A stretch of DNA of 64,000 bases. It comes from an uncultured Chthonomonas sp. Its GTDB lineage: Bacteria > Armatimonadota > Chthonomonadetes > Chthonomonadales > CAJBBX01. Under the pieces are notes generated by a model that was given only the letters and a program-made list of their open reading frames with translations, was not told where the DNA came from and ran no database searches. A program made the position numbers and the translations under genes. Of the stretch, positions 15,998 through 24,064 are shown in pieces. The stretch spans positions 1 to 64,000 of the forward strand of contig CAISJD010000207.1 of NCBI GenBank assembly GCA_903885605.1, written 5' to 3'. The stretch's first letter is position 1. The number at the start of each line of letters is the position of its first letter.

Positions 15998-16014
15998 GTG
16001 ACAGAGGTGTGACA
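15998..16014. promoter_or_regulatory. 11-bp-spaced direct repeat, putative SARP operator 1
   Basis: GTGACA occurs at 15998-16003 and again at 16009-16014, exactly 11 bases apart, about 85 bases before the SARP-NTPase start. Read on the other strand it is TGTCACACCTCTGTCAC, matching the two sites at 22.4 and 22.8 kb. SARP regulators of the OmpR-like winged-helix type bind direct repeats with one-turn spacing. Autoregulation is inferred. Confidence 0.5.
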
Positions 16015-16097
16015 ATCGAACGGCAGTGAAGCGCACCCGGTTGTCGTGATGACACAATGAAGAGGTTGAGATTAGGAGGGATGGCTGGATCGCGCTG

Positions 16098-17909
16098 GTG
16101 ATCGCTGATGCCTGTGAGGTGAGCCCTGTGGAGCTTCCGTTGTCGCATATACCTTCGGCCGATGGCACCGAACCCAGAGGCCTGGAGATTCGCCTGTTCG
16201 GGTTGTTCGAGCTCTCTATCGATGGCATGGCAATCCCGGCCATCTCAAGGCGTGATGGCGACCGCATCCTGGCTTTCCTCATCTTGCAAGAGAGGCCCGT
16301 TTCGAAGGCTACCGTGGCCGATACCTTTTGGCCAGGAACCGGAAGTCAGGAGTCCCTGCGCCAGAGCCTGACCTCCATGAGACGCGCTCTCGGTGACCAC
16401 GCCTGGCGGCTTGGCGGCCAGGCCGGAGCGCTGAGCTTCGATACGACCGGAGCCGGCGTGGACGTGATCGCGTTCGACAACCTGGCCCGGTCCGATCGCC
16501 TGGAGGATCTGCTGTCTGCGGCCGCACTGCATCGTGCCCCGCTACTGGACGAGCGACACGAGGAGTGGGCCCGGAAGGCTCGGTCCGATCGGAAGCGTGT
16601 CCTGACCGACCTGCTCCACCGGGCCTCGCATCTGGCCCGCGATTGCGGCGACCTGCCGCGGTCCTGCGCCCTCCTGCACAGGCTGACGCGCGCTAAGCCT
16701 ACCATGGAACATGCCTGGTCCGACCTGATGGCCGTGCTAATGGCCAGCGGCGAACGGGCTGTCGCACTGGAGCAGTATGCCGCCTTCAGCACCTACCTGA
16801 AGTCGCGCCACGGCCTGGCGCCGTCACCGGAGATGGAGGCCATGCACACGCGACTACGAACCGACGAGGGGCGGCCATCCGATCCTGCGTCGGCGCCCGT
16901 CGGCCGTAGCGGCGTCGGTGGCGCCGTGCCCCTATCCTCGACCCTCTACGTCCAACGGGCCGCCGACGTGAGCCTTGCCGCGGCCCTCGATCGGGGCGAG
17001 TCGATCATTCGCATCCAGGGACCCAGGCAGACCGGGAAATCGTCGGTGCTCGCACGTGGCCTGCAGCATGCCAGGGCCCTCGGCAACACCACCTACGTCT
17101 TAGAGTTCGAGCGGCTGGCGGCCGAGGACCTTGCCTCCATGAAGACCCTCTGCCTCCGCGTGGCCTCGATCCTGGCTGCCCAGCTTGACGGCGACCCGGA
17201 TCCCGGAGCCGACTGGTCCGATGCCATGGGCCCCGGCGTGAACCTGGAGCGGTTCGTCCTGCGCCACGTGCTGGGCGAGAAGCCGACCCCCGTCGTCATC
17301 GCCATGGACGACGTGGACCGCCTGTTCACCTATCCCTTCGCCTCTGACTTCTTCGCCCTCCTCCGCGCCTGGCACGGCCGCCATGCGTTCGAGCCCGACC
17401 GCCCCCTGGGCCGTCTCACGATGGCGCTCGTCTTCGCCACGGATGCGCACCTGTATTTGAGGAACCTGAACCACTCTCCCTTCAACGTGGGCGCCCGCAT
17501 TGCCGTGGAGGACCTCAGCGCCGAGGAGCTAGACGAGCTCGTACGACGCTACGGCGCCACCTTCGGATCACGGGCAGAGCGGGCGCAGTTCCATGTCCTG
17601 GTGGGCGGGCATGCTTACTTCGCATGCAAGGCCCTGCAGGCCATGGAGGAGAACGGCTGGTCGGTTGCCGAACTTGGCGCTCACGCCGGGCGGGAGGACG
17701 GGCCACTGGCCGATTCCCTGGGAGCCCTGTGGCGGCTGCTGGGCTCTGACGCGGACCTCGTCGCCGAAGTGAAGGCTGTCCTGGCCGGCGGGAGATGCAG
17801 CGATGCAGCCTTCGATCGCCTCCGCTCGGGCGGTATCCTGGCCGGTGAACCGGAGCGCCCCCTCTTTCGGAGCGGTGTGCTGAAGACGTACCTGGCAGCC
17901 CACGCATGA
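16098..17909 (+). CDS. SARP/BTAD transcriptional activator fused to AAA-like (AAA_35-type) NTPase
   Basis: Protein of 603 residues with three parts: an OmpR-like winged-helix DNA-binding domain (29-128; IRLFGLFELSIDG, FWPGTGSQESLRQSLTSMRRAL), a bacterial transcriptional activator (BTAD) helical repeat domain (about 130-255; LKSRHGLAPSPEMEAMH), and an AAA-like NTPase (about 278-600) with P-loop QGPRQTGKSSV at 307-317 and Walker B VVIAMDDVDRL at 399-409. SARP proteins activate transcription and are often gated by their STAND-like NTPase. The start is GTG 16098; AGGAGGG lies 18 bases upstream, somewhat far, so the N-terminus could be off. The gene overlaps the next NTPase gene by 4 nt, implying translational coupling. 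Confidence 0.85.
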   Translation: MIADACEVSPVELPLSHIPSADGTEPRGLEIRLFGLFELSIDGMAIPAISRRDGDRILAFLILQERPVSKATVADTFWPGTGSQESLRQSLTSMRRALGDHAWRLGGQAGALSFDTTGAGVDVIAFDNLARSDRLEDLLSAAALHRAPLLDERHEEWARKARSDRKRVLTDLLHRASHLARDCGDLPRSCALLHRLTRAKPTMEHAWSDLMAVLMASGERAVALEQYAAFSTYLKSRHGLAPSPEMEAMHTRLRTDEGRPSDPASAPVGRSGVGGAVPLSSTLYVQRAADVSLAAALDRGESIIRIQGPRQTGKSSVLARGLQHARALGNTTYVLEFERLAAEDLASMKTLCLRVASILAAQLDGDPDPGADWSDAMGPGVNLERFVLRHVLGEKPTPVVIAMDDVDRLFTYPFASDFFALLRAWHGRHAFEPDRPLGRLTMALVFATDAHLYLRNLNHSPFNVGARIAVEDLSAEELDELVRRYGATFGSRAERAQFHVLVGGHAYFACKALQAMEENGWSVAELGAHAGREDGPLADSLGALWRLLGSDADLVAEVKAVLAGGRCSDAAFDRLRSGGILAGEPERPLFRSGVLKTYLAAHA

Positions 17910-20900
17910 GCGGCCCGCCCGGCTCGTTCTACGTCACTGGCGGCAGCCTGGCGCCGAGCGCACCCAGCTACGTCGCACGTAAGGCCGACGACGAGCTCTA
18001 CTCCGCCCTGGCCGACGGCCAGTTGTGCTACGTGCTCGACACGCGGCAGGTAGGGAAGTCCAGCCTCATGGTCCGCGCCGCCGCGCGCTTGCGTGCCGAG
18101 GGTGTGCGCGTGGCTGCCATGGACCTGAGCGGCGCAGGCCGGAATGTGGAGCCCGAGCAGTGGTACATGGGCTTGCTCCACATGGCCTCGTCGCAGCTCG
18201 ACGCGGAGGAGGCGTGCGAGGCCTTCTGGCGCCGCCACAGCTCCCTCAGCCCTGTGGTGCGGTTCATGGCCACCATCCAGGAGGTGTTGTTGGCCGCGTC
18301 CGAAGCGCCCCTGGTCCTTTTCATCGACGAGATCGACGCCGTGCGCGGGCTGCCATTTACCGCCGATGAGCTCTTCGCGGCGGTCCGTGCCGCCTTCAAC
18401 CTCCGCGCCGACCGGCCGGAGCTGCGCCGCCTTACCTTCTGCCTGATCGGCGTGGCGACACCCTCGGACCTGATCCGCGATGCCCGTACCACGCCCTTCA
18501 ACGTGGGCCGACGCATTGAGCTGACCGACTTCACACGGGAAGAGGCCGCCGGGCTTGCCGCCGGGCTGAATGCCAAGACGAACGGCGCGCGGCTCATCGG
18601 GCGCATCCTCCACTGGACCGGAGGCCACCCCTACCTCACCCAGCGCCTCTGCCGCGCCCTGGCCGAGACCGGGTGCGACGGCTCCGACGGCCAGGTCGAC
18701 CGCGTCTGCCGGGCCACCTTCCTCACCCGGCAGGCCCGGGAGGTGGACGACAACCTGGCCTTCGCCCGCGACCGGATCATGAGCCCCTACCCGGGCGCCG
18801 GCCTCGCGGCCACGCTGCTGCTCTACCGAAGCCTCCTTGACGGCCGCCGCCGGGTGCCCAACGACCCAACCGACCCGCGCGTTGCCCTCCTCCGCCTGGC
18901 CGGCGTGGTGAAGCCGGATGACGGGCACATCGCCGTGCGGTGCCGCATCTACGCCCGGGCCTTCGACCGCCGGTGGGTCGATGGCGCCTTGCCGGGCGAG
19001 GAAGTGCGGCGCATGCGGCGGGCACTCCGCGTGGGCTACCTGCGCGCATCGGCCGTCTGGGCCACCGGCATGGCGCTCCTCGCCGTGGCCGTGGGGCAGG
19101 CCTTCCGCGCCGGCGGTCTGGAGCGCCGGGTTGGCGCTCTGCGGAGCCAGGAGGCGCGCCTGAGGCGCAGCATGGCCGAGATGCAGCACCGGACGACCGC
19201 CATGGAGCGGCGGCAGCTGGAGATGCAGGAAGATACAGCCCGGACGCTCCGGAAGAACCGCGCCGCCGTGGCCGTCGAGCAGGCCCGCGCACGCCAGGCC
19301 GAAGCGCAGCGTATCCGCGCTGCCGCCGCAGCCGAGGCCATGCAGGGTGCCGTGGCGTCGGGCCTCGCGGTGGTCTCGGGCCGCGAAGTCGAGGCCCTTC
19401 GCACGGGCCTCCAGGCCGTTGAGCCCGCCGTGAACGAAGGTCGCGAGCCCCCGGAGGAGGCGCTGCAGGGCCTGGCCGACGCCGTGAACCAGGGCCTCGT
19501 GCGCCGCTGGCGCCGCCTCATGGATCGCCCCTTCACCGGCGTAGCCCTCTCCACAGACGGCCGCCGCCTGGCCGTCTGCTGGGACAGCGGTACGGTGCTG
19601 ATGCTTGACCCCGCCACAGGGCGCACGCTGCGTGCCATCCGGGCCGGTGGCAGGGTGAGGGCGATGGACTGCACCGACGATGGCCGACGGCTCATTACCT
19701 ACGGACTTGAGGGCAGGCTCTGCCTCTGGGACCTTGAAGCCCGGGGAGGTCCTGTGCGGCTCCGTACCTGGGAGATGGGCCCTCACTCGGACCCGAGGGC
19801 GCGCGTCTGCATGGGCCAAACCCGGATCGCCTGCAGCCGGGCGGGAGGGCGCTGCACCGTGGTGGAGATGGACGGCGCCGGGCAGGTTAACATGGAGAAG
19901 GCGCACACCGGCGCGATCACCGACATTGCCACGTCGGAAGAGCGACCCGTCGTCGCCACTTCGGGCACAGACGGTGCAGTCTACGTGTTCGAGGACACGA
20001 CCGGGAAGTTCGTGTCGGGCCACACCCAACACAGCCTAGCACCGACGTCGCTGAAGCGCAACAGCGAGGAGACCGTAAGGCTCGTCTTCACACATGACCG
20101 CCTCGTCTCCGGCGACAGCCGGGGATCCGTGTTCACGTGGGTCTGGGCGAGATCGGAGCTGCTCTATGAGAACCACCCGACGGCGGCTGCTCTGAACTGC
20201 CTTACCACCGTTGGAAGCCCCTATTTCGTAGGATTATCTTCGAAGACCAGACGTGTAGCGATTTGTATTTCAGCGCATATGGTTGATCCCTTGGCCGCAA
20301 CGGCTGCGGCCACGGACGGTACCGTACGTGTGGCCGGCGGAGAACACCAGGGCGGTTTCGCGGCAGTAGATGGTGACGGGACGGTGGAGATGTGGCGCTA
20401 TGCAGCCCGCCACAGAGGCAGTGTCGTGGAACAGGTGTCGTACGGCGAGGTGGCGGCGGACAACAGGACGGTCTACTACGGCGGCAAAGCCCCGGTAGTG
20501 TACCGCTGGGACGCCATAGGCGGCGACCTGCCGTTCATGATGGAGATGGCCCCGGCCGGCAGCTTGAGGGCAGTGGGCCACGTGGCCTGCAGTCCGGCAG
20601 GGCATGCCGTTGCCGTCGCCCTCGGCACCGATATCGTCCTGTACCCCGACGGCAAGGCCGAGACGTCCAGCCGGTGGCGTGCAGGCGAGAAGTACCTCTG
20701 GGCCATCGAGTGGACGCCTGACGGCTCCGCCTTCTACACGGCCTGCGCTGACGGCCGGGTAGCGCTGTGGGACGCGAAGACGCAGCGGCAAATGGCCGCT
20801 TGGCAGTTGCCGGGGAGCCCGCGCAGCATACGGGTGAGCCGCGACGGTGCCACGCTGGCGGCAGCCTGCGCTGACGGCGCCGCCTACGTCTGGTCGGCCT

Positions 20901-21415
20901 CCGGCGTGGCCGGTTTTCGCGCCTTCCTGCCGCCGGGCCGAGAGGTGGAGAGGGCCAAGACCCCGGCGACGCACTACCCCTGGCAGGCAGCCTGGTCGCC
21001 TGACGGCAAGCTGCTCGTCACCGCCGACGACGACGGCAACGCCTACCTGTACCGATCGACCGACGGCAAGGTGGTGGCGACGCTGCCGACATTTGGCGGC
21101 CGGCTGCTATCGGCCTACTTCTCGCCGGACGGCAAGAGCCTGCTCACAGCCGGCACCGACACCTCGGTGCGCCTGTGGGATGTGGCGACCGCCCTGGCCG
21201 CAGCCCGTGCCCGCCGACGGGCCCAACCGCGCCTGATCGTCCGGGCCCACCGCGAGGGCATCAACTCGGCCACCTTCTCGCCCGACGGGCAGTGGATTCT
21301 TACCACCTCCCGCGATACGACCGCCCGGCTCCTGCCCGCCACGGCAAAGGCCTACGTGCGCGCCGCCCGCGAGATGCTCGCGCTGGTGGCGCCCAGCGCC
21401 GCTGCGCCGCGCTGA
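17906..21415 (+). CDS. AAA-like NTPase with transmembrane segment, coiled coil and WD40 propeller
   Basis: Protein of 1169 residues. It opens with the AAA_35 signature (YVTGGSLAPSAPSYVARKAD), the P-loop-like DTRQVGKSSL at 45-54 and Walker B LVLFIDEIDAV at 136-146. A single hydrophobic segment lies at about 383-398, then a charged coiled coil (405-475), then a C-terminal WD40 region (about 540-1140) with LCLWDL, VALWDA and VRLWDV blade ends. Such NTPase-WD40 proteins are sensor/switch ATPases of the STAND type. The propeller would lie on the opposite side of the membrane from the NTPase if the segment spans once. A stretch near 20200-20300 is AT-richer than the rest and its blades are poorly conserved. 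ATGA overlap with the SARP-NTPase suggests the two NTPases work together. Confidence 0.83.
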   Translation: MSGPPGSFYVTGGSLAPSAPSYVARKADDELYSALADGQLCYVLDTRQVGKSSLMVRAAARLRAEGVRVAAMDLSGAGRNVEPEQWYMGLLHMASSQLDAEEACEAFWRRHSSLSPVVRFMATIQEVLLAASEAPLVLFIDEIDAVRGLPFTADELFAAVRAAFNLRADRPELRRLTFCLIGVATPSDLIRDARTTPFNVGRRIELTDFTREEAAGLAAGLNAKTNGARLIGRILHWTGGHPYLTQRLCRALAETGCDGSDGQVDRVCRATFLTRQAREVDDNLAFARDRIMSPYPGAGLAATLLLYRSLLDGRRRVPNDPTDPRVALLRLAGVVKPDDGHIAVRCRIYARAFDRRWVDGALPGEEVRRMRRALRVGYLRASAVWATGMALLAVAVGQAFRAGGLERRVGALRSQEARLRRSMAEMQHRTTAMERRQLEMQEDTARTLRKNRAAVAVEQARARQAEAQRIRAAAAAEAMQGAVASGLAVVSGREVEALRTGLQAVEPAVNEGREPPEEALQGLADAVNQGLVRRWRRLMDRPFTGVALSTDGRRLAVCWDSGTVLMLDPATGRTLRAIRAGGRVRAMDCTDDGRRLITYGLEGRLCLWDLEARGGPVRLRTWEMGPHSDPRARVCMGQTRIACSRAGGRCTVVEMDGAGQVNMEKAHTGAITDIATSEERPVVATSGTDGAVYVFEDTTGKFVSGHTQHSLAPTSLKRNSEETVRLVFTHDRLVSGDSRGSVFTWVWARSELLYENHPTAAALNCLTTVGSPYFVGLSSKTRRVAICISAHMVDPLAATAAATDGTVRVAGGEHQGGFAAVDGDGTVEMWRYAARHRGSVVEQVSYGEVAADNRTVYYGGKAPVVYRWDAIGGDLPFMMEMAPAGSLRAVGHVACSPAGHAVAVALGTDIVLYPDGKAETSSRWRAGEKYLWAIEWTPDGSAFYTACADGRVALWDAKTQRQMAAWQLPGSPRSIRVSRDGATLAAACADGAAYVWSASGVAGFRAFLPPGREVERAKTPATHYPWQAAWSPDGKLLVTADDDGNAYLYRSTDGKVVATLPTFGGRLLSAYFSPDGKSLLTAGTDTSVRLWDVATALAAARARRRAQPRLIVRAHREGINSATFSPDGQWILTTSRDTTARLLPATAKAYVRAAREMLALVAPSAAAPR

Positions 21416-21430
21416 GTGAGCCCGTCGCAC
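21411..21430. repeat. Copy 1 of 20-nt near-duplicate (GCTGAGTGAGCCCGTCGCAC)
   Basis: This 20-mer covers the stop codon of the WD40 gene. It differs at two positions from the 20-mer at 22781-22800, which ends in the first half of SARP operator 2. It suggests that a segment was duplicated within the island. Confidence 0.45.
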
Positions 21431-21443
21431 GCGCCAGGCGCCC

Positions 21444-22385
21444 TTACTCTCGCAGACCCAGCGCCACCGAGTGGATCCCGAGCGGCTCGGTGCGCACGTC
21501 AACGCCGGCGAACCCGGCCCGCTCCACGAGTCCGGCCAGCTCGCCGGGTGTGCGGTAGAGCATATCCGGATCCCAGTCCGCCACCGCAGTCACGAACTCC
21601 CGCTCGGAGTTCGGGTGCACGTGGGCGGTCGTCAGCCGGCCCCCCGGCGCCATGGCCTCGCGGATGCGGCTGAACAACGAGACGGCCGTGGTGTCCGAGA
21701 GGTAGTCCAGCAGACCCACGATCTCCACGATGTGCGGAGCCAGCGCTGCGGCCACTTTACCGGCGGCAAGCACATTGCAGCACTGCCACGTAACGGAGCC
21801 CAGCGCGTAGTGCCGCGCCAGTTCGCGGCTATACTCGATAGCGGATGCATCGCGATCAATGCAGTGGATGCTCACGCGGTCCAGCCCATCCATCGCCTCG
21901 AAGACCGCCTGGGCCGAGCCCGACGCTACGGACAGCACACGCACCTCGCCGTGGACATCACGTGCGGTGATGGCCTGGGCGCGAAGCGCTTGGGCGACGA
22001 GGCGGTACCGGTTGCGCAAGGCGCGGCAGTTCCGGATACCGAAGTAGAAGCGCTCCAGTGGGGTCGCGCCGGACGGGCGCCAGTTGTAGATCGCGTCCAA
22101 GGCCGGATAGCGTGCCGCCCCTGCCCGAACCCGCCGGATGCCGGCGCTAAGGCCATCGCAGAGCACGAACGCGCGATCCAATACGATGCCACGGCGCCGC
22201 CGCCGGTTCACCATCGCCGTTGGGGCCCAGATGAGCGGCGGGGCCAGCAGATGGTACAGAGGACCCGGTTCGCGTTCCATCGGCGTCGCCATCAGGCGCG
22301 ACGGCGGCGGTGCGCCGGCCCGGCTCCGGCGCGGGATGCCCGTCACCGTCTCAGCGGGGTCCTGCTTCCCCGTTTGCAGCCACAC
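21444..22385 (-). CDS. Class I SAM-dependent methyltransferase
   Basis: Protein of 313 residues. GTG 22385 is chosen because GGAGGTG lies six bases upstream and a TATCAT -10 box at 22407-22412 fits just before it. The ATGs at 22292 and 22280 lack ribosome sites. The Rossmann methyltransferase core is visible: VRVLSVASGSAQAVFEAM (motif I variant), IHCIDRDAS (acidic end of strand 2), IVEIVGLLDYLSD and GGRLTTAHVHPN. The first 120 residues, including RFYFGIRNCRALRNRYRLVAQAL, are helical and specific to the subfamily. The substrate is unknown. It ends 28 nt from the WD40 gene, tail to tail. Confidence 0.75.
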   Translation of the reverse strand: MWLQTGKQDPAETVTGIPRRSRAGAPPPSRLMATPMEREPGPLYHLLAPPLIWAPTAMVNRRRRRGIVLDRAFVLCDGLSAGIRRVRAGAARYPALDAIYNWRPSGATPLERFYFGIRNCRALRNRYRLVAQALRAQAITARDVHGEVRVLSVASGSAQAVFEAMDGLDRVSIHCIDRDASAIEYSRELARHYALGSVTWQCCNVLAAGKVAAALAPHIVEIVGLLDYLSDTTAVSLFSRIREAMAPGGRLTTAHVHPNSEREFVTAVADWDPDMLYRTPGELAGLVERAGFAGVDVRTEPLGIHSVALGLRE

Positions 22386-22406
22386 GTTGGCACCTCCATG
22401 TCCGAC

Positions 22407-22461
22407 ATGATAGGCCCACCCTACTCGAACGCGCGTTTCTGGTGCGTGACCGCTCCGTGAC
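22407..22461 (-). promoter_or_regulatory. Putative SARP operator 3 and promoter of the methyltransferase gene
   Basis: On the plus strand CGTGAC occurs at 22445-22450 and 22456-22461, exactly 11 bases apart; on the minus strand this reads GTGTCACGGAGCGGTCACG. A TATCAT -10 box lies at 22412-22407 without a recognisable -35 box, as expected for an activator-dependent promoter. Transcription would start near 22400, just ahead of the GGAGGTG ribosome site and GTG 22385. Confidence 0.5.
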
Positions 22462-22554
22462 ACTCCGGCGCCTGTGTCTTGTCGCGGACGGAGGCAGTGG
22501 ACCCGCCTGCGTAGATCGCTCTGGTCGGACCCGCGACGAGCCCATGTCTGCGTC

Positions 22555-22725
22555 GGGCCTGCCTTCGTGGCGGCGAAGAAGGCCAACAGGCCAGAGGCCC
22601 AGGCGGGCATCGTGACCGTGGCCATTGGGTTGCCGAACCCCGAGGTGCGGGTCATCGGGCCGACCATCTCTTGTGTCGGCGGCTTCCGGCTCCACGGAGG
22701 TTTCGCGGCAGGGCAGGAGGCCCCG
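22555..22725 (+). pseudogene. Decayed copy of the C-terminal part of the TPR-membrane protein
   Basis: Translated in this frame, GPAFVAAKKANRPEAQAG, IVTVAIGLP and FRLHGGFAAGQE align with GPAFVPRKKTNWPVATKG, IVAVAIGIP and FWLHKGFVVGLE near the end of the TPR-membrane protein at 23357-24064. The spacing between blocks is the same. No upstream TPR part or ribosome site is present, and the membrane segment contains charged residues (PNPEVRV), so it is a remnant. The open frame runs on out of homology to 22785. Confidence 0.6.
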
Positions 22726-22780
22726 CCGCGCTCACGGGCCGCCTACAGCGCGGCTCTGATGCGCGGTACCGGGCCCAGAG

Positions 22781-22812
22781 GCTGAGTGAGCCTGTCACAC
22801 AGTTGTCACACA
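22781..22812. promoter_or_regulatory. Putative SARP operator 2 (TGTCACACA twice, 11-bp spacing)
   Basis: TGTCACACA occurs at 22793-22801 and 22804-22812, exactly 11 bases apart, about 140 bases before the small beta-sandwich gene. It starts within a 20-mer (22781-22800) nearly identical to 21411-21430. It is the best-conserved of three similar sites flanking genes of this island. Confidence 0.55.
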
Positions 22813-22952
22813 TCGGTCCGGCGGGTTGTGCGACCATGGAGTTGCGTTGCACCCGGGGATGGGCCGTCAGCCGGGCCCTACCCGGGCAGCGCCGTAACCA
22901 GGAGGCCGGGGCCAAGGCAACGCTTGGTCAGCCCGTGGAGGAGAAGCCAGTC

Positions 22953-23192
22953 ATGCTTTACATCACCGTGCGCGTCGTCGAGCCGTCCGGCAGGCCCCGC
23001 GAGTATGCCCGCGTCTCCGTGAAGACGCCGGGCCTCTTCGGTGGTTGGCTGGCAGAGCAGCGCACCGACTCGAATGGCGAAACGGAGTTTGAGGTGAATG
23101 TGTCGGACTCGGACAAGATCGAGGTCTACGCCGACGGCTCCATCCTCTACGACGACTACCCCAGGTCTAGGATCACGGTGACGGTGCGGTAG
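22953..23192 (+). CDS. Small transthyretin-like beta-sandwich protein
   Basis: Protein of 79 residues with no signal peptide or membrane segment. GGAGGAGA lies 8 bases before ATG 22953. The pattern of alternating hydrophobic strands with PSGRPREYARVSV, TDSNGETEFEVN and a closing SRITVTV resembles a single Carboxypeptidase-regulatory-like/transthyretin-type domain. Function is unknown; a binding or assembly role is likely. It lies downstream of SARP operator 2 and 164 bases before the TPR-membrane gene, so it is probably part of the same regulated island. Confidence 0.65.
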   Translation: MLYITVRVVEPSGRPREYARVSVKTPGLFGGWLAEQRTDSNGETEFEVNVSDSDKIEVYADGSILYDDYPRSRITVTVR

Positions 23193-23356: not shown

Positions 23357-24064
23357 ATGTCAGGCTGGTCAATCGAAGGGCAAACTGTTGTATCCTATAC
23401 TGATGATGTTGATTCGGAGGTTAGATCTGCTACATCTATCGATAACGAATTGGTGCGCGCCGATCGGCTGCAGTCGCTCGTCTCGGGTGACCTACGCTTG
23501 GCGTGGCAGCACGTGGCCGGCGCTCCGGCTCATGAGCAGCCACAGCTCATGGGCATCTGCGCCTCGACGGAGGCGCGAGTCCAGCTGGCCGTGTACGATG
23601 CGTACTGCAGGTTCGCTAGTCTGCCGGAGTACAAACCCAGGATTCAACACGCCATCGTGAGGGCAGCCGAATGCCTCTCCCAGGCGATCGAACAAGACCC
23701 TCGACCCGTCTACCACTACAACCTGGGCCTGGTGCTCACGATGCTGGACCGCAAGGCCGAGGCCGCCCGGATGTTCCAGCTCGCTGCAGACAGCGACGAC
23801 ACTGATATCGCCATAAAGGCTCGAAAAGAACTGGGTCGTCTTGGACCCATACGCGAACAAGCAATGGCCCAGGCCCCGCAGGCGGCGCCAGGCGGACCTG
23901 CCTTCGTGCCGCGGAAGAAGACCAACTGGCCTGTGGCTACCAAGGGGATCGTGGCGGTCGCCATCGGGATCCCACTGCTCGCAGTTCCCGTCATCGGCCT
24001 TGTGGTTCTTGGTCTGGGCGCCTTCTGGCTTCACAAGGGCTTCGTGGTGGGGCTGGAGACCTAA
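23357..24064 (+). CDS. TPR-like protein with C-terminal membrane segment
   Basis: Protein of 235 residues. AGGAGG lies just before ATG 23357. A helical region at about 90-165 (AECLSQAIEQDPRPVYHYNLGL, EAARMFQLAADSD) has TPR-like pairing. After a Pro/Ala linker and basic PRKKTNWP, a long hydrophobic stretch (about 197-226) forms one or two membrane helices, so the protein is probably tail-anchored with the TPR part in the cytoplasm. The first 35 codons are clearly more AT-rich than their surroundings, suggesting a recent or foreign 5' part. A degraded second copy lies at 22555. The role is likely protein-protein contact within the SARP/NTPase island. Confidence 0.65.
   Translation: MSGWSIEGQTVVSYTDDVDSEVRSATSIDNELVRADRLQSLVSGDLRLAWQHVAGAPAHEQPQLMGICASTEARVQLAVYDAYCRFASLPEYKPRIQHAIVRAAECLSQAIEQDPRPVYHYNLGLVLTMLDRKAEAARMFQLAADSDDTDIAIKARKELGRLGPIREQAMAQAPQAAPGGPAFVPRKKTNWPVATKGIVAVAIGIPLLAVPVIGLVVLGLGAFWLHKGFVVGLET

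Follow-up and report, generated by a model that had tools for sequence, protein, structure and literature searches.

We analysed a 64,000-nucleotide stretch of the genome of an uncultured Chthonomonas sp. (the window), which contains a 6.8-kb island around a gene for a SARP-type regulator. We observed that a TGTCAC-type hexamer occurs twice, at an exact 11-bp register, in three intergenic sites of this island. The sites and the neighbouring genes are as follows.

15998..16014, minus strand: site 1, TGTCAC-N5-TGTCAC, read as TGTCACACCTCTGTCAC on the minus strand and as GTGACAGAGGTGTGACA on the plus strand
16098..17909, plus strand: SARP-AAA_35 gene (603 aa), OmpR-type winged helix, BTAD and AAA_35 NTPase
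17906..21415, plus strand: AAA_35-WD40 gene (1169 aa), Pfam AAA_35 (1.7e-27) and WD40 (1.4e-33)
21444..22385, minus strand: methyltransferase gene, Pfam Methyltransf_20 (1.5e-13), GTG start at 22385 after GGAGG
22446..22462, minus strand: site 2, TGTCACGGAGCGGTCAC on the minus strand, forward towards the methyltransferase gene
22793..22809, plus strand: site 3, TGTCACACAGTTGTCAC on the plus strand, forward, before the beta-sandwich gene
22953..23192, plus strand: small beta-sandwich gene (79 aa), with orthologs of 76% identity in two congeners
23357..24064, plus strand: TPR protein gene, hydrophobic C-terminus

The SARP-AAA_35 protein has the two features of a large-type SARP, an OmpR-type DNA-binding domain followed by BTAD (Pfam 4.8e-13) and a C-terminal NTPase domain (AAA_35, 2.2e-51). 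A profile of its residues 9-255 matched structure chains of AfsR (E about 1e-20) and EmbR. The start of the AAA_35-WD40 gene overlaps the end of the SARP gene by four bases (ATGA), and its product consists, in order, of the NTPase, a hydrophobic segment near residues 381-400, a coiled-coil-like stretch and the WD40 repeats. The hydrophobic segment, picked out by eye, is a probable transmembrane helix. No effector domain was seen in the island. Genes were called by a simple script based on codon scores, and most of the genomes compared below are MAGs.

The first-pass annotation had reported these three repeats at 11-bp spacing, and they are indeed present. Site 1 has the coordinates given there, while site 2 lies at 22446-22462 rather than 22445-22461, and site 3 ends at 22809 rather than 22812. 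Site 1 is reversed (GTGACA...GTGACA) relative to the SARP gene, 83 bp from its listed GTG start, with a -10-like element, CACAAT, 38 nt downstream. Site 2 is about 60 bp from the methyltransferase start, and from our reading of the sequence it is followed at 33 nt by TATCAT, additional turns away yet still in phase. The beta-sandwich site, site 3, has a degenerate third unit, GGTCCG, at 22815, and its -10 is a poor one.

Occurrence of the repeat in the genome

Taken singly, TGTCAC hexamers show no enrichment in the window (16 against 24.7 expected); the paired, spaced form is enriched. Genome-wide pattern searches found the exact form to be rare: TGTCACN5KGTCAC matched five times in the 5.6-Mb genome, against none for a reversed-letter control. 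Three of these five matches are inside the island, and they are all the noncoding ones. The remaining two are within coding sequence, one in a long predicted gene (C72:12071) and the other in a glycosyltransferase gene (C115:8725). The shorter form TGTCAN6TGTCA had six exact matches against none in controls, of which two were on the window's contig (C207), two on C60, and one each on C129 and C205. The C205 match (C205:6126), along with several in relatives, was dropped for lying inside a predicted gene. When one mismatch was tolerated (TGTCACN6GTCAC), 36 matches were obtained against 28 in the control; at this near-control level, only the exact sites are informative.

The island in congeners

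In the congeners G001 and G002, the beta-sandwich orthologs are directly 3' of the AAA_35-WD40 gene, and are preceded at about 90-100 bp by GGTCACGCCGTTGTCACGCA, the counterpart of site 3 (L105:13133 and L106:12992). Since the 3'-terminal part of the WD40 reading frame runs into this counterpart, the conservation of the repeat could be partly due to coding. The SARP-proximal repeat is missing from the two closest SARP orthologs, those of G001 and G002 (about 51-56% identity). The methyltransferase gene had no match in the orthologous islands of G001 and G002. The TPR gene also had no match in the orthologous islands, and it has no repeat of its own in the window. The earlier proposal of a single regulon made of two NTPases, a methyltransferase, a beta-sandwich protein and a TPR protein is therefore partly supported and, in its five-gene form, over-stated.

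Two other features of these congeners may be recorded here. The closest SARP ortholog in G001 (G001:C83, L106 8313 region) is split by a TAG stop between its SARP and AAA_35 parts. In both genomes, TGTCACAGCGCTGTCAC precedes a conserved lipoprotein gene (L193 5477, L199 5004), whose HGH and SCH motifs, seen by eye, suggest a caspase-like fold.

The repeat upstream of SARP genes in relatives

The SARP-AAA_35 and AAA_35-WD40 pair is widespread within the order. The named relatives belong to Chthonomonadales and other Armatimonadetes MAGs, and similar proteins are also present in Acidobacteria, Verrucomicrobia and others. Allowing up to one mismatch, we observed the repeat within about 510 bp upstream of eight of 29 full-length SARP-AAA_35 genes, compared with 0.1 in shuffles; the other 21 had no close match. 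We further examined 84 SARP-type genes that were fetched by protein similarity only, leaving out loci found by the motif search and counting the window's gene. The reversed repeat, again with at most one mismatch, was upstream of seven of them at 11-bp spacing, compared with none at spacings of 8-10 and 12-18 and one at 19. Reversed sites directly precede SARP-AAA_35 genes in several genera, and the SARP-AAA_35 proteins bearing the repeat fall on deep, separate branches. In six out of six independent SARP-AAA_35 genes with a reversed site, the best -10-like hexamer was 15, 26 or 37/38 nt downstream, an 11-bp phase (shuffle value 1e-4, to be discounted about tenfold because this phase was picked once the data had been seen).

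That a short motif clusters by chance would fit the control-level frequency of the one-mismatch versions in the genome, as well as the frequency of TGTCA-N6-TGTCA in order-level relatives, which is near control overall. However, the exact matches are clustered (five and six, with none in either control), the repeat recurs at one spacing before independent SARP genes, and the beta-sandwich site is conserved. We consider this explanation highly improbable: the data from relatives leave it very little likelihood at sites 1 and 3, and for site 2 taken alone it is possible.

Paralogous cassettes

The genome has three cassettes of SARP-AAA_35 and AAA_35-WD40 genes, on C207, C60 and C108. The C60 SARP gene is preceded by four copies of TGTCAG at 472, 483, 494 and 506 (L024 472-511), that is, at spacings of 11, 11 and 12. 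This array, its spacing and the downstream -10, GCGCAATACTG, are kept in G001 and G002, and hence in three species. Since the sites are TGTCAC on C207 and TGTCAG on C60, it appears from these upstream sequences that a single genome has two SARP-AAA_35 paralogs differing in half-site. The third cassette, on C108 (L025 4738-10336), has no repeat upstream of its SARP gene, which starts 19 bp past the preceding gene, for a 3-keto-disaccharide hydrolase.

A C60-like array of four copies was also seen on C129, before a gene for a secreted protein, and a shorter array precedes a DUF7948/SBBP gene in G001. Arrays of three to four TGTCAG or TGTCAT copies, upstream of the paralogous SARP gene and of genes for secreted or DUF7948/SBBP proteins, were noted at L024 472-511, L067 6707-6746 and L185 400-427.

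Sites across the phylum

When 237 genomes of the phylum were searched, exact TGTCACN5TGTCAC was clearly above control in family f14. The genes downstream of the sites in this family encode secreted proteins of large size, several of them Ig-like in sequence, and the sites are built of TGTCACG units with a TATCA-like -10 after them. Among 51 forward noncoding sites, 22 had a -10-like hexamer 10/11 or 21/22 nt downstream (shuffles gave 4.5, with a maximum of 13). The published SARP promoter layout has this same geometry between repeat and -10 (PMC10936776, PMC4393881).

By a rough estimate, SARP genes are within several kb of about nine of 38 site loci, which is above the density expectation. 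In one family, the number of SARPs per genome correlated with the number of sites (rho 0.40); with a partial value of 0.18 given genome size, this correlation was not used as evidence.

Large SARPs of other kinds are present in most site-bearing genomes. Some of these genomes, among the matches listed, show only N-terminal SARP domains of such other large SARPs with the SARP-AAA_35 profile, and G089 has one site and no SARP match in its genome. It follows that the binder could be some other SARP or a winged-helix regulator of a different kind. As the motif precedes secreted Ig-like genes, including in genomes whose best SARP-AAA_35 profile matches are N-terminal SARP domains of other large SARPs, the TGTCAC repeat looks like a motif of the wider SARP family that is not confined to the island.

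These observations bear on whether the repeats of the window, even as true SARP operators, might be bound by a different SARP of the genome. The genome has 12 BTAD matches that offer other candidates, and elsewhere TGTCACG sites occur where the SARP-profile matches listed are N-terminal domains of SARPs of about 1000 aa, and adjoin the genes of such SARPs (L322, L359, L362, L363). However, the noncoding exact sites of the genome cluster only at the SARP-AAA_35 islands, on C207 and (as TGTCAG) on C60, plus the one array on C129, and in several genera it is SARP-AAA_35 genes that the reversed sites directly precede. A different binder thus seems unlikely, and we retain the SARP-AAA_35 of the island as the favoured one.

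In G188, which gave hardly any match to SARPs, we also observed a run of four TGTCAC-like units (L326 2211-2249), placed between a response-regulator gene and a groES (Cpn10) gene.

Comparison with the Pho box

The half-site TGTCA, the 11-bp register and the winged-helix fold are all shared with the PhoB Pho box of E. coli and with the PhoP box, and we evaluated whether a PhoB/PhoP response regulator might bind the repeats as Pho boxes. The E. coli PhoB consensus, TGTCAT-N5-TGTCAT/C, has nearly the same half-site and the same spacing (PMC10294691), PhoB and SARPs have the OmpR-type winged helix in common, and AfsR and PhoP sites overlap in Streptomyces (PMC10936776). However, none of 21 PF12849 (pstS-type) loci in 15 genomes, the window's included, had a TGTCAC or TGTCA repeat in the promoter, and the phoU promoter also lacked a TGTCAC repeat. 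In addition, six Fimbriimonadaceae-like genomes of family f14 that have TGTCAC sites elsewhere carry CTTAACA-type 11-bp repeats before pstS, so that the PhoB-type regulator seems to use another word in this phylum. Identity with the Pho box is therefore disfavoured, being largely refuted by the pstS and phoU promoters, and we regard it as very improbable.

The CTTAACA-type direct repeats upstream of the pstS-type genes (L384, L385, L386, L390, L391, L398) are probably an armatimonad Pho box. The PhoP box of Bacillus is similar to them.

Interpretation

SARPs are mainly known as actinomycete antibiotic activators. Like Streptomyces SARP/AfsR and its afs box, the island combines an OmpR-type winged helix and BTAD with direct repeats one turn (11 bp) apart, and as in the large Streptomyces SARPs, the regulator is fused to an NTPase. 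In SARP operators, the direct repeats follow one another at 11 (or 22) bp, and the 3' repeat stands about 8 bp (10 nt from the hexamer) away from the -10. All three sites have the 11-bp spacing; the afs box operators have two or three repeats, with the -10 about 8-10 nt from the last. The island differs from the AfsR system in its half-site, TGTCAC(G), in its phylum, Armatimonadota, and in the reversed orientation of the regulator's own site. Its NTPase domain is of the AAA_35 type, and a further AAA_35 protein, this one with WD40 repeats, is encoded by the adjacent gene. In relatives, the sites have as putative targets genes for secreted proteins, Ig-like or beta-rich, unlike the antibiotic genes of AfsR.

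The 11-bp-only spacing, the orientation, the conservation in relatives and the -10 geometry of the sites as a class agree with the earlier view of the repeats as SARP-linked operators, a reading that is well supported by the comparison of genomes. We consider it probable that they are operators of SARP-family regulators, and that they are most likely bound by the SARP-AAA_35 encoded at 16098-17909; the binder, like the sign of control, we infer. The SARP-AAA_35 would bind as a side-by-side dimer, with one winged helix on each TGTCAC half-site and a single turn of DNA between the two. At the forward sites before the methyltransferase and beta-sandwich genes, it would activate transcription from a position next to RNA polymerase. 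At its own promoter, the reversed site, helically phased with the -10, points to autoregulation. The co-encoded AAA_35-WD40 protein is presumed to be a sensor partner that would switch the SARP through its AAA_35 domain.

Together, the cassettes and sites may, tentatively, be read as an armatimonad two-gene switch (a SARP-AAA_35 and a probably membrane-anchored AAA_35-WD40 protein), held in several paralogous copies with paralog-specific words, TGTCAC and TGTCAG, that controls secreted beta-rich surface proteins phylum-wide; we hold this broader scheme to be possible, with more doubt than confidence. Regulated NTPases and a complex lifestyle are also the common theme with the NTP-dependent conflict systems of multicellular bacteria, and the paper on them makes no mention of SARP, AAA_35 or Armatimonadetes (PMC7159879). 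Our literature search found no paper on a SARP in Armatimonadetes or on TGTCAC with a SARP.

These findings would place the promoter logic of SARPs in a barely cultured phylum, where it appears tied both to a cassette of paired NTPases and to proteins that are secreted. They provide a concrete candidate operator sequence for the SARP family outside the actinomycetes, and paralogs with different half-sites could help to read its recognition code.
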